A stretch of DNA of 64,000 bases from assembly GCF_013409935.1 (NCBI RefSeq), contig NZ_JACCCO010000002.1:1550001-1614000 (forward strand). The letters are read 5' to 3'. The translations under genes and the position numbers were made by a program. The DNA comes from Streptosporangium sandarakinum (lineage in GTDB: Bacteria > Actinomycetota > Actinomycetes > Streptosporangiales > Streptosporangiaceae). Under the pieces are notes generated by a model. That model was not told the origin of the DNA. It did no database searches and saw nothing but the letters and a program-made list of their open reading frames with translations. Each line of letters starts with the position of its first letter. The stretch's first letter is position 1. Below are positions 43,051-48,102 of this stretch, in pieces.

Positions 43051-43635
43051 ATGTCGATCCAGACGCGCCGGGAGCGCGAACGAGCGGAGCGGGAGCGGCT
43101 GATCATCCGGGCCGCGCGGGAGCTGGCCGAGTCGGAGGGCTGGGACGCGGTGACCACGCGCCGCCTCGCCCAGGAGATCGAGTACAGCCAGCCGGTCCTC
43201 TACAGCCACTTCAAGGGCAAGGACGCCATCATGGCGGCGGTCGCGATCGAGGGCTGCGCCGACCTCGCCGTCGAGCTGCACGCGGCCCGTACGGCGGCGG
43301 CCGACCCCCGGCGGACCCTCGCCAACGTCGCCGCCGCGTACGTCGGATTCGCCGAACGGCGGCCCGCCCTGTACGACGCGATGTTCACGCACATCGTCGA
43401 TCTGCCGTTCGCCACCGCCGAGGCCCCGCCCGCCCTGCAGGAGGCCTTCGGCGAACTGCGTGAGACCGTACGACCGCTGGTGCGGGACGACGAGACGGAG
43501 GCCGACCTGGGGGCGCTCACCGAGGTCTTCTGGAGCGGAATGCACGGTCTCGTCACGCTCACGCGCAACGGCAGGTTCCGGCCCGAGCACCACGACCGCC
43601 GGATGGCGCTCCTGCTCGACCGCCTCTCCCGCTGA
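43051..43635 (+). CDS. TetR-family regulator
   Basis: 194 residues. 'RLIIRAARELAESEGWDAVT', 'TRRLAQEIEYSQPVLYSHFK' and 'GKDAIMAAVAIEG' are the TetR DNA-binding motif; the C-terminal part ('PALYDAMFTHIVDLPF', 'EVFWSGMHGLVTLTRNGRF') resembles the WHG-type ligand domain. Autoregulated through the two CTAGC palindromes and shared with the divergent DUF4267 gene. Confidence 0.92.
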   Translation: MSIQTRRERERAERERLIIRAARELAESEGWDAVTTRRLAQEIEYSQPVLYSHFKGKDAIMAAVAIEGCADLAVELHAARTAAADPRRTLANVAAAYVGFAERRPALYDAMFTHIVDLPFATAEAPPALQEAFGELRETVRPLVRDDETEADLGALTEVFWSGMHGLVTLTRNGRFRPEHHDRRMALLLDRLSR

Positions 43636-44295: not shown

Positions 44296-44465
44296 GGGAA
44301 CTCCGTTCAGCGGGGCTAAAGGGGGTCGGAATCGAGCCCCTCCGAAGGGGCCGAGATCGAAGGTAGAAGCCCGGTGGGTCCCGGCACATCGGCCGATCGG
44401 CACGCCCGCCCCCCTACCTTCGTCAGGGGCGCGCCCGGCATCCCCGGCGGTGACGACCGCACACG

Positions 44466-44518
44466 GGCCGGGCAGACGTCCCAGGCCGGGCAGACGTCCC
44501 AGGCCGGTAGGCGTTCCA
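44466..44518. repeat. 18-bp tandem repeat upstream of thrS leader
   Basis: GGCCGGGCAGACGTCCCA occurs at 44466-44483 and 44484-44501 exactly, with a degraded third copy to 44518. The 44296-44663 gap otherwise shows a TACCG-TTTT-CGGTA inverted repeat (44636-44649) just before the leader and no gene. Confidence 0.8.
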
Positions 44519-44663
44519 GGCCGCGGGCGCGAGAGACCGGCCGCCCGGCCGATGCCTTTCTCGCGGCGGACGTGACGCGTTCACGATGTCGAGCGGCCGG
44601 CATCTCGGGGCTGGGAAGCGGGGACGTCGCTCTGCTACCGTTTTCGGTATGCAGCGTGCCGCC

Positions 44664-44699
44664 ATGACGACGACGCCGGAGAGTGTCCCGGCGCGCTGA
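44664..44699 (+). CDS. Threonine-rich leader peptide (attenuator)
   Basis: 11 codons: ATG ACG ACG ACG CCG GAG AGT GTC CCG GCG CGC TGA, i.e. Met-Thr-Thr-Thr-Pro-Glu-Ser-Val-Pro-Ala-Arg. Three consecutive threonine codons, 15 bases before a strong terminator hairpin and 94 bases before a threonyl-tRNA synthetase gene, are the classic architecture of ribosome-mediated attenuation: ribosome stalling at low Thr-tRNA should favour read-through. No good SD is visible (upstream GCAGCGTGCCGCC), and a slightly earlier in-frame ATG at 44649 (ATG CAG CGT GCC GCC) could be used instead. Confidence 0.7.
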   Translation: MTTTPESVPAR

Positions 44700-44714
44700 C
44701 AGACGTCTTGATCC

Positions 44715-44744
44715 GAAGCCCCGGGGCGAGTGCCCCGGGGCTTC
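44715..44744 (+). terminator. Attenuator terminator before thrS
   Basis: GAAGCCCCGGGGC - GAGT - GCCCCGGGGCTTC: a perfect 13-bp stem with a 4-base loop, followed by GTCTTGTGG. It lies between the leader stop (44699) and the synthetase start (44793), so it would block expression unless prevented from forming. The intervening AGACGTCT (44701) and the leader's GTCCCGGCGCG are candidates for the competing antiterminator pairing. Confidence 0.85.
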
Positions 44745-44792
44745 GTCTTGTGGTCGCTCGCCTCCTGGACCCGCATCCGCGAGGAGACCGCC

Positions 44793-46073
44793 ATGCACGA
44801 CCACCGCAGACTCGGCCGCGAACTCGGCCTGTTCGACACCGACCCGCTGATCGGCTCGGGCCTGCCGTACTGGCTGCCCGACGGCGCGGCCGTACGGCAC
44901 GCGCTGGAGGAGTACATCCGCGAGGCCGAGCGGAGAGCCGGCTACCGGCACGTGTACTCGCCGGTGCTGGGCAAGCGGGAGCTGTACGAGATCTCCGGGC
45001 ACTGGTCGCACTACAGCGACGACATGTTCCCGCCCATGGACCTGGGCGGCGAGCAGGTCGTCCTGCGGCCGAGCCTGTGCCCGCACCACGCCCTGATCTT
45101 CCGTTCCCGCTCGCGCAGCTACCGTGAGCTGCCGCTGCGCATGGCCGAACTGGGTGGCATGTACCGCTCGGAGCTGTCGGGCGTGCTCGGCGGGCTGACC
45201 CGCGTCCGGGCCATCCAGCTCAACGACGCGCACATCTTCTGCACCCTGGAGCAGGTCGCCGACGAGGCGGGGGCCGCGCTGGAGATGATCCGCCGGGCGT
45301 ACCGGGCGCTCGGCATCAGCCCGGCCCGCTACCGGCTGTCCCTGCCCGGTCCCGGCGGGAAGTACGTCGCCGCCCCCGAGCTGTGGCGGCGCTCCACCGA
45401 GCTGCTGACCGAGGTCCTCGACCGCTCCGGCCTGCCGTACGAGGCGGCCGAGGGCGAGGCGGCGTTCTACGGTCCCAAGATCGACATCCAGGTGGCCGAC
45501 GGCGCCGGCCGCGAGTCCACCCTGTCCACCGTCCAGGTCGACTTCCACCAGCCCGAACGGTTCGGCCTGCACTACATCGGCGCGGACGGCGCCAAGCACC
45601 GGCCGGTGATGGTCCACCGCAGCATCATCGGCAGCGTGGAGCGCGCCGTGGCCCACCTCATCGAGCACCACGGCGGCGCCTTCCCCGCCTGGCTCGCCCC
45701 CGTTCAGGTGGTGGTCCTCCCGGTGTCCGACGCCGAACTGCCGGACGCCGCCGCGCTCGCCCGGCGCTGCGCCGATCTCGGGCTGCGGGCCGAGGTCGCC
45801 GGGCCGGAACACGGCAGCCTGGGCGCCCGGGTACGGCAGGCCCGCCTCGTGCCCTACCAGGCGGTCATCGGCGCCCGGGAGGCCGCCGCCGGCCACGTCG
45901 CCCTGCGGCTGCGCGACGGCCGCCGGCCGGAGGGGCTGACCGCCGCCGAGGCGCCGGCCCGCATCCGTGCCCTCGTCGGGTCCCACGGCACCGACCTGTG
46001 GGACACCGGTGCCGATGCCGACACCGGCGTTGACGCGGGCAGCGGCGGGCGGGGCGGTCTGACCGCGGGCTGA
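44793..46073 (+). CDS. thrS: Threonyl-tRNA synthetase paralogue lacking TGS and editing domains
   Basis: 426 residues versus ~640-660 for a standard ThrRS: it begins at the catalytic core ('GSGLPYWLPDGAAVRHALEE', motif 1 region) and lacks the N-terminal TGS and editing domains. Zinc ligands are retained: Cys in 'LRPSLCPHHALIF', His in 'QLNDAHIFC', His in 'VMVHRSIIGSVERAVAHLIE'. Motif 2 is 'MYRSELSGVLGGLTRVRAIQ' (TQDD changed to QLND). A C-terminal anticodon-binding domain follows ('VQVVVLPVSDAELPDAA') plus an acidic/Gly tail. GAGGAG lies 6 bases before ATG 44793. Expressed behind a Thr-codon attenuator, so probably an inducible second synthetase, possibly tolerant to a ThrRS inhibitor. Confidence 0.9.
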   Translation: MHDHRRLGRELGLFDTDPLIGSGLPYWLPDGAAVRHALEEYIREAERRAGYRHVYSPVLGKRELYEISGHWSHYSDDMFPPMDLGGEQVVLRPSLCPHHALIFRSRSRSYRELPLRMAELGGMYRSELSGVLGGLTRVRAIQLNDAHIFCTLEQVADEAGAALEMIRRAYRALGISPARYRLSLPGPGGKYVAAPELWRRSTELLTEVLDRSGLPYEAAEGEAAFYGPKIDIQVADGAGRESTLSTVQVDFHQPERFGLHYIGADGAKHRPVMVHRSIIGSVERAVAHLIEHHGGAFPAWLAPVQVVVLPVSDAELPDAAALARRCADLGLRAEVAGPEHGSLGARVRQARLVPYQAVIGAREAAAGHVALRLRDGRRPEGLTAAEAPARIRALVGSHGTDLWDTGADADTGVDAGSGGRGGLTAG

Positions 46074-46120: not shown

Positions 46121-46696
46121 TCAGGTGGCGGCGAGGCTGCGCTCGACCGCCTTGACCACCAGCTCGTCCACTTCTTCGGGGGCGAACAGCTCCGGGAGCG
46201 TCAGCGTCTCCACGATCAGCCAGTTGAGCGCCAGCATGAGGAGCTTGACCGAGATCGCATCGCCCGGCAGGCCCCGCTCCACGTGATAGGCGACGTTCGC
46301 GTCCACATCCGCGCGCACCCTCTCGGTGAGCACGGCGCGCAGCTCGGGCCGCCGGGTCGACTCCAGTCGCAGCTCCAGCATGGCGAGATAGCCGCTGCGG
46401 AATCCGGCGACCCGCCCGACCGTCTCCCGCATCAGCTCGACCACCTTGGCCCTGTCCTGCGGTCCCGCTTTCGCGGCCGCCCAGGTGGCCTCGTCGGGCA
46501 TCCACCGCTGGTAGACCCGCTCGGCGATCTGCATGAGCAGGTCGTCGCGGTTGGCGAAGTAGTTGGTGGCCGTGCCCACCGGGGTGCCCGCCTCGGCGTC
46601 GACCGCCCTGAAGGTCAGGCCGCGCGCGCCTTCCTTGGCCAGCACCTCGATGGCCGCGTCGAGGAGCGCGTTCCTGCGCTGGTCGTTCTTTCGCAT
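46121..46696 (-). CDS. TetR-family regulator
   Basis: 191 residues: 'RNALLDAAIEVLAKEGARGL' and 'TFRAVDAEAGTPVGTATNYF'-'ANRDDLLMQIAE' give the TetR HTH; the C-terminal ligand domain ('GYLAMLELRLESTRRPELRA') is of the TetR_C_11-like kind. Divergent from a dihydrofolate reductase-family gene with twin GTAGTACTAC sites between, so it probably represses both. Confidence 0.92.
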   Translation of the reverse strand: MRKNDQRRNALLDAAIEVLAKEGARGLTFRAVDAEAGTPVGTATNYFANRDDLLMQIAERVYQRWMPDEATWAAAKAGPQDRAKVVELMRETVGRVAGFRSGYLAMLELRLESTRRPELRAVLTERVRADVDANVAYHVERGLPGDAISVKLLMLALNWLIVETLTLPELFAPEEVDELVVKAVERSLAAT

Positions 46697-47666: not shown

Positions 47667-47682
47667 CGGCACCGTGATCCAC

Positions 47683-48102
47683 ATGAACGCGGAACACATC
47701 GACGAGCGCACCCGTGAAACCGAGATCGAGGCGATCAGGCGGGTGGTCGCCGCCGTCCAGCACTCCCAGCGGAACATGCTCTCCGAGGAGTTCGTCGGCC
47801 TGTTCCGGCACGACGCCGTCTGGACGACGGCCCACGGCAGGCGGCTCTTCGGCCGCGACGAGATCTCGGAGTTCACCCACAAGGTGCTCCCCGGCGCGAT
47901 GACGGACGTCACGGCCACGTACGAGGTGGAGCACGTGCTGTTCATCCGGCCCGACGTCGCCGCGGTCAAGGTGCGCCAGCGCTACCTCACACCCGGCGGC
48001 GAGCCGGTCGGAAACGCGGGCAGCCCGATGTACGTCATGTCCAAGGAGAACGGGCGCTGGCTCCTGACCGCCTGCCAGAACACCGAGGTCCGCGACACGT
48101 GA
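47683..48102 (+). CDS. SgcJ/EcaC-type SnoaL-like (NTF2-fold) protein
   Basis: 139 residues from ATG 47683 (GTG 47674 is possible). 'ETEIEAIRRVVAAVQHSQRN' and 'FVGLFRHDAVWTTAHGRRLF', 'FTHKVLPGAMTDVTATYEVE', 'KENGRWLLTACQNTEV' match the SgcJ/EcaC family, a second member in this window but only moderately similar to that at 37590. Small ligand-binding or catalytic role unknown. Preceded by a MerR-type inverted repeat. Confidence 0.87.
   Translation: MNAEHIDERTRETEIEAIRRVVAAVQHSQRNMLSEEFVGLFRHDAVWTTAHGRRLFGRDEISEFTHKVLPGAMTDVTATYEVEHVLFIRPDVAAVKVRQRYLTPGGEPVGNAGSPMYVMSKENGRWLLTACQNTEVRDT

Follow-up and report, generated by a model that had tools for sequence, protein, structure and literature searches.

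The locus raises the question of how a short leader rich in threonine codons controls the expression of a second threonyl-tRNA synthetase (ThrRS) gene. The window, the whole stretch of 64,000 nucleotides analyzed here, carries this gene, thrS2, at 44793–46073 (coding to 46070), and all features of the locus given below lie on its forward strand. We consider it reasonably probable that thrS2 is a stress-type second ThrRS of actinomycetes which an RNA relay that senses the ribosome keeps switched off. Statements about published work refer to the accessible sections of the cited papers.

The short synthetase and its leader reading frame

Based on domain matches and codon counts, thrS2 encodes a ThrRS of 426 aa with catalytic and anticodon-binding domains. 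The preliminary description of the locus had proposed a ThrRS paralogue lacking the TGS and editing domains, and the domain search agrees: PF00587 and PF03129 were the only Pfam families matched at E 0.001, with no match to TGS or to the editing domain (tRNA_SAD) at that threshold. The thrS2 start codon stands right behind its Shine-Dalgarno sequence. The product scores 443 bits against the thrS model TIGR00418 (cut-off 384). The zinc ligands Cys, His and His that had been claimed are present as Cys96, His147 and His275, and they are kept in all 126 distinct short enzymes. A search for a second, full-length thrS in the genome (7.65 Mb in 4 contigs, assembly completeness 95.6%) had also been recommended, and such a gene was found as an 838-aa open frame. 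Its product contains tRNA_SAD, with no match to TGS at E 0.001, and a region of it is 45% identical to the short ThrRS across 386 residues. Judging from the missing editing domain alone, the short ThrRS may mischarge tRNA with serine.

Among the matches listed, the closest named relative is S. pseudovulgare, whose thrS2 protein is 96% identical. A recent duplication of the main thrS as the origin of thrS2 is doubtful, since the short ThrRS scores higher against the S. aureus ThrRS (370 bits) than against the main ThrRS of its own genome (357 bits), the two values coming from searches with different programs. Genes for TetR-family regulators lie on both sides of the locus (43051–43635 and 46121–46696), and a SnoaL-like protein of the SgcJ/EcaC type (TIGR02246) is encoded nearby at 47674–48102.

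The leader is an open reading frame of 16 codons, MQRAAMTTTPESVPAR-stop, at 44649–44699, assigned from the alignment, the promoter spacing and an analogue in S. lividans; it is probably leaderless. The preliminary description began the leader at ATG-ACG-ACG-ACG. That sequence is located at 44664–44675 as described, but the in-frame ATG at 44649, 7 nt past the −10-like element TACCGT (44636–44641), is the likelier start. The spacing is general: in all 180 aligned leaders, TA...T stands 5–8 nt ahead of an in-frame start (ATG or GTG), at 7 nt in 152 of them, compared with 69 of 1800 shuffled controls. The start sites of WblC-activated promoters in S. coelicolor lie 7–8 bp past the −10 element (PMC7157823), and when this spacing is applied here, transcription would start right at the leader's initiation codon. 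For S. lividans, thrL has been reported as leaderless on the basis of RNA-seq (PMC8079986). The control codons ACG ACG ACG (44667–44675) are conserved across the 180 leaders, the first being ACG in 176 and the second and third reading ACGACG in 179. Thus a feature of ribosome-mediated attenuators, a threonine-codon leader before a ThrRS gene, is present at this locus.

The control codons open a conserved core, ACGACGACGCCGGA-N4-GTCCCGGCGCGCTGA, at 44667–44699. Outside N4, each core position is identical in 174–180 of the 180 aligned leaders, third codon positions included. The full 30/30 match occurs in 169 of them, and the lowest score is 25 (L166). We set the threshold for the core at 24 of 30 scored positions, of which 4 are free, and it was reached by 151 of the 156 loci selected on protein similarity alone (L001, L005–L113 and L144–L189). 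The remaining five comprise four with a variant leader, read by eye (L078, L154, L189 and the diverged L183), and L082, whose upstream sequence is limited to 102 nt. Scores of 21–23 were obtained at the 13 main thrS loci, none reaching the threshold. The distance from the core to the thrS2 start is 76–250 nt, with a median of 86 (137 loci with the gene in the sequence). The counts over 180 leaders leave out L002–L004, which are not the paralogue, the spurious L134, the diverged L183, and the four loci with a core below 24/30 (L078, L082, L154 and L189). They include some genomes twice (e.g., L005 and L034), so that leader, hairpin and downstream sequence taken together give 168 distinct entries, and 29 were found via the leader pattern and are thus preselected for TTP..VPAR.

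The near invariance of the third positions in the core indicates that the constraint acts on the RNA. A role of PESVPAR at the peptide level was set aside because these third bases are fixed and because L078, L154 and L189, read by eye, keep the leader RNA while the reading frame or stop is changed. We also considered autoregulation. E. coli thrS is autoregulated by ThrRS binding its own leader, and the same could be imagined for a highly conserved leader whose gene product is a ThrRS, but what is conserved is a leader ORF carrying control codons, and we regard autoregulation as highly improbable.

A class-wide search with the third positions left free matched 51 of 394 genomes, and the reversed control matched none. 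One of the matches is unrelated (L134); the other 50 use identical third bases. Among 30 pattern loci examined, 28 encode a ThrRS, the exceptions being L134 and L137. Close to a contig end, L137 has the leader, the hairpin and a Shine-Dalgarno sequence, followed by an ORF whose start is unlike ThrRS. The pattern spans five families of the class sample (f1, f4, f17, f18 and f19). In the family sample, at least 76 of 200 genomes have a short ThrRS among the matches listed (75 close and one at 53% identity). At least 80 loci come from named genomes, mostly Streptomyces and relatives of Streptosporangium, together with Saccharopolyspora, Nocardiopsis, Kitasatospora, Streptoalloteichus and others. 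The 53%-identical short ThrRS (L257, the same locus as L183; G082 contig C60, reverse strand) follows a diverged ACC ACG ACG leader that has Thr-Thr-Thr and a hairpin of its own without the VPAR core, and appears as a distant member of the arrangement.

Hairpin T and candidate pairings up to the Shine-Dalgarno region

Downstream of the leader stop lies hairpin T (44714–44745), with a stem of 14 bp and a 4-nt loop (segments 3 and 4). Its folding energy is −33.7 kcal/mol (z −7.6; none of 200 shuffles as stable), and alternative standard pairs along the stem occur in relatives. The preliminary description reported a perfect 13-bp terminator with a 4-base loop. The hairpin and its loop stand, whereas the stem is 14 bp and the label of terminator is weak, as there is no U-tract. 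A terminator scan of the window, requiring at least 5 T in 8 nt, gave no terminator-like site. Across the 180 leaders, the 8 nt 3′ of the stem contain 2.2 T on average, with at least 5 T in 4 leaders and at least 4 in 22.

Two pairings upstream of hairpin T come from folding and complementarity. Segment 1, CAGCGTGCC (44652–44660), pairs with the core end GGCGCGCTG in the minimum free energy (MFE) fold of the whole leader, and a pairing of this 1:2 type with at least 5 bp appears in the leader-alone MFE of 124 of 180 leaders. Segment 2, GTCCCGG (44685–44691), is a candidate partner of CCGGGGC in the 5′ arm of hairpin T. This putative antiterminator, helix A, is proposed from complementarity and spacing and from the invariance of GTCCCGG. 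In a fold test it formed in 177 of 180 leaders, compared with 169 of 180 when the arm was shuffled, and this test does not discriminate. No covariation was found for helix A in the 180 leaders because its core side is invariant. Hairpin T is stable enough that it could displace helix A. A search of 44400–45000 against Rfam returned 6 matches up to E 1, all far below the gathering scores, and none was a T-box.

Three segments further along were then compared between loci: the apical segment of hairpin T, GGCGAGTG (44725–44732), the candidate 5′ strand of an antisequestor (helix B); segment 5, CGCTCGCC (44755–44762), which has two possible partners, the apical segment (B) and the Shine-Dalgarno region (S); and the Shine-Dalgarno region itself, GCGAGGAGACC (segment 6, 44779–44789), the candidate for sequestration in helix S. 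Helix B was evaluated by comparing matched with class-swapped duplex energies over 166 distinct pairs of kernel and downstream sequence in 28 classes of T apex, with permutations that ignore kinship. At class level the energy was −13.55 kcal/mol for own duplexes and −11.10 for swapped ones (z −6.6), a difference reached in 0 of 20000 permutations, in which kinship is not modelled, and 25 of the 28 apex classes went in the expected direction. No signal came from control regions at the coding start, on the promoter side or in the core; with the downstream sequence reversed, a weak signal was seen (448 of 20000). As examples, the apex GCAAGTG stands with CACTTGC in one group of Streptomyces, and the apex GCGAACG with CGTTCGCC in loci of the L179 and L186 types.

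The segment also covaries with the Shine-Dalgarno sequence. For helix S, own pairs had −10.12 and other pairs −8.56 (0 of 20000 permutations, kinship again not modelled), and 13 of the 14 classes with at least two members behaved as expected, CGCAAAGG barely; CCAAGGGA was contrary. In the loci of the L179 and L186 types, a CCCTTT segment lies opposite an AAAGG Shine-Dalgarno sequence. In the window itself, the S hairpin does not stand out in stability, with 19 of 200 shuffles comparable. Because the downstream segment covaries with both the T apex and the Shine-Dalgarno region, the pairing points at translation initiation. Pairing of the Shine-Dalgarno sequence and pairing of an antisequestor, both features of translational attenuators, are thus found here by covariation, with kinship not modelled. 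When the 3′ arm of T was blocked in equilibrium MFE folds, there was no net freeing of the Shine-Dalgarno sequence (higher in 25 and lower in 20 of 177), so the formation of B before S is a kinetic assumption.

These data bear on the reading of the locus as pure transcription attenuation, in which T would be an intrinsic terminator whose formation is prevented by ribosomes stalled at the threonine codons. The long, perfect, GC-rich stem and the leader stop close to it are as expected for such a device, and thrL-thrS of S. lividans has been classed as an attenuator (PMC8079986). However, few T follow the stem (at least 5 in only 4 of 180 leaders) and the window scan was empty; in L178, L179, L186 and others the stem is short and a T-run is lacking; the S. 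lividans paper likewise reports no uridine-rich sequence (PMC8079986); and helices B and S are left unexplained. We consider this reading unlikely, and the compact intrinsic-terminator attenuator of the preliminary description is not upheld. The lack of a U-tract together with helices B and S suggests, at the level of sequence comparison, control of translation alongside, or in place of, termination.

Threonine codons in the leader and in thrS2

Threonine codons were counted over the first 390 codons of the 126 distinct thrS2 genes. They comprise 1192 ACC, 37 ACT, 6 ACG and no ACA, so that ACG accounts for 6 of 1235, and 120 of the 126 genes are free of ACG altogether. In the window, thrS2 has 12 ACC and no ACG. 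A longer reading of 139 thrS2 genes, duplicates counted, gives 10 ACG among 1536 Thr codons. The 11 thrS2 genes less than 76% identical to that of the window have 0 of 54, and the diverged gene at L257 has 1 of 9. Threonine itself makes up 2.5% of residues in thrS2, 3.2% in the same region of the main ThrRS and 6.3% in neighbours.

We compared this bias with ordinary preferred-codon selection, under which the leader ACG codons would be a mere constraint of RNA structure. This explanation draws on the aligned region of 13 main thrS genes, where ACG (23 of 163, 14%) is also lower than in flanking ORFs (1624 of 4831, 34%; a mechanical set of 204 ORFs with at least 200 aa and GC3 of at least 0.85), and on the leader core, which is constrained as RNA in its entirety. 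It does not account for the other amino acids. The shares of G-ending codons in thrS2 are near those of the main thrS for Ala (0.379 and 0.422), Pro (0.569 and 0.605), Val (0.401 and 0.429) and Ser (0.369 and 0.410), but for Thr they are 0.005 and 0.141. Among 198 neighbour ORFs with at least 8 Thr codons, only one has ACG at or below 2%, against 120 of 126 thrS2 genes with none. We therefore regard codon preference as quite improbable.

The genome has one tRNA-Thr gene each with the anticodons TGT, CGT and GGT, as obtained by reading all 54 tRNA matches of the 95.6% complete assembly. Decoding of ACG needs tRNA-Thr with CGU or UGU, and ACC is read by tRNA-Thr with GGU. Therefore, the leader demands the CGU/UGU tRNAs and the thrS2 gene the GGU tRNA. 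As the leader is nearly all ACG and thrS2 nearly free of it, the leader seems to probe ACG decoding, and thrS2 appears translatable without it. The partition fits the reasoning of the selective-charging theory (PMC1183508).

A further explanation is that thrS2 is mainly a translation-stress gene of WblC/WhiB7, and that ribosome-targeting drugs, rather than threonine, slow the leader ribosome. Here the genome itself has 9 WhiB-family matches, one of which (L208; G000 contig C2, about 1161063–1161203) ends in an RGRPRK motif at its C-terminus, and we take this protein to be a WblC/WhiB7-like candidate. In the WblC/WhiB7 regulon, GAAAWY stands 3 nt upstream of the −35 element. Here 39 of 180 leaders have this sequence, always between −32 and −34 relative to the −10 element and nowhere else in the 45 nt scanned. 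The order and spacing of motifs in PMC7157823 predict about −31 to −34, and the same study lists thrS2 as a representative WblC-activated gene of S. coelicolor. On the other side, the exact box is missing from 141 of 180 leaders, the window included, and WblC activation predicts neither the fixed ACG codons of the leader nor the avoidance of ACG in the gene. As WblC activation and threonine sensing can coexist, we see this as a possible but rather unlikely account of the locus as a whole. Going by a literature listing, S. coelicolor thrS2 is presumably SCO3778. Sigma-E has been reported to bind SCO3778, a threonyl tRNA synthetase, in ethanol-stressed cells only (PMC10771440).

A role in replacing a main enzyme inhibited by borrelidin-like compounds had been suggested for the short ThrRS. 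The position presumed to correspond to E. coli L489, mapped by eye through the S. aureus ThrRS, carries Gln in 125 of the 126 short enzymes and also in 4 of 13 main enzymes. Mutations at L489 of E. coli ThrRS increase the Ki of borrelidin (PMC4389257). Because main enzymes share it, Gln is not diagnostic for borrelidin resistance and was rejected as a marker; the printed evidence favours general translation stress via WblC over borrelidin.

The proposed relay and related systems

The spare ThrRS is probably made when ACG decoding slows. The switching itself, which we infer from the core, hairpin T, helices B and S and the codon bias as compared between loci, would proceed as a relay of overlapping helices, 1:2, 3:4 and 5:6 in the OFF state and 2:3 and 3′:5 in the ON state. 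With usual ribosome footprints, GTCCCGG would be exposed while a threonine codon occupies the A site and covered once the stop codon has reached it. Transcription would start at the leader AUG. When the three ACG codons are read fast, the ribosome at the stop would cover GUCCCGGCGCGC and T would form; the downstream segment would then pair with the Shine-Dalgarno sequence and expression would be off, and where the tail permits, transcription would also terminate at T. A ribosome paused at ACG would leave GUCCCGG free for the 5′ arm of T, so that T fails; the released T apex would capture the downstream segment before the Shine-Dalgarno sequence emerges, and thrS2 would be transcribed and translated.

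Since the thrS2 mRNA is decoded almost solely by tRNA-Thr(GGU), the enzyme could be produced even when charging of tRNA-Thr(CGU/UGU) or decoding of ACG fails. Its product would charge tRNA-Thr, and the editing domain of the main enzyme would presumably clear serine errors in trans. We give about even chances to the full form of this proposal, an isoacceptor-specific switch in which the leader monitors ACG decoding by tRNA-Thr(CGU/UGU), the ACG-purged gene needs tRNA-Thr(GGU) alone, and one stalled ribosome would both allow elongation past the hairpin and open the Shine-Dalgarno sequence. Possible signals would be a shortage of threonine, inhibition of ThrRS, or loss of one tRNA-Thr isoacceptor, for example to a tRNA-cutting toxin.

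The locus is partly known. As an attenuator for thrL-thrS of S. lividans TK24 is in print (PMC8079986), the attenuator as such is not new, and WblC activation of S. coelicolor thrS2 has been published as well (PMC7157823). The S. lividans system also has a leaderless short ORF, MKRVRPFLETTPGFVPAR, before thrS, one hairpin and no uridine-rich sequence; it differs in having two Thr codons and was described in one species, in an account whose accessible text mentions no paralogy, Shine-Dalgarno switch or codon partition. Judging by its leader, SLIV_19410 would be a short ThrRS. The S. lividans-type ending TTCGTCCCGGCGCGCTGA had 0 matches in the 101 genomes of the genus of G397.

Other systems share single elements. 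Actinobacterial leader peptides with alternative structures, and LEU elements and T-boxes acting on the Shine-Dalgarno sequence, were described by Seliverstov et al. in 2005 (PMC1262725), but for threonine operons that paper gives no conserved upstream RNA structures, and thrS and threonyl are absent from its accessible text. Anabaena combines an accurate constitutive ThrRS, T1, with an induced, editing-impaired paralogue, T2, but T2 is under Zur repression and its expression rises at low zinc, with no leader peptide mentioned in the accessible text (PMC4787780). The selective-charging theory likewise has the control codon picked among synonyms for its sensitivity to amino acid limitation; it concerns E. 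coli biosynthetic operons, with eight ACC codons in the thr leader in place of the ACG found here, and its section 10 leaves aside whether the controlled gene avoids the control codon (PMC1183508).

Paired ThrRS genes, one of them induced by threonine shortage, are also known as thrS and thrZ of B. subtilis. These are under T-box control, unlike thrS2, with no T-box match in 44400–45000. Among the papers listed in searches of largely open-access literature, no title or abstract opening described such a conserved relay or a partition of ACG codons. What is new here is the hairpin without a U-tract, the covariation of the apex with the downstream segment and of this segment with the Shine-Dalgarno sequence, and the contrast between an ACG leader and an ACG-poor thrS2.

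With control codons and gene codons split between isoacceptors in several actinomycete families, the arrangement provides a natural test of selective charging, and it suggests that one leader peptide may gate transcription and translation together. For the cell, it would offer a route to a second synthetase when charging of tRNA-Thr fails, and it may be part of the intrinsic tolerance of antibiotic producers to translation inhibitors.
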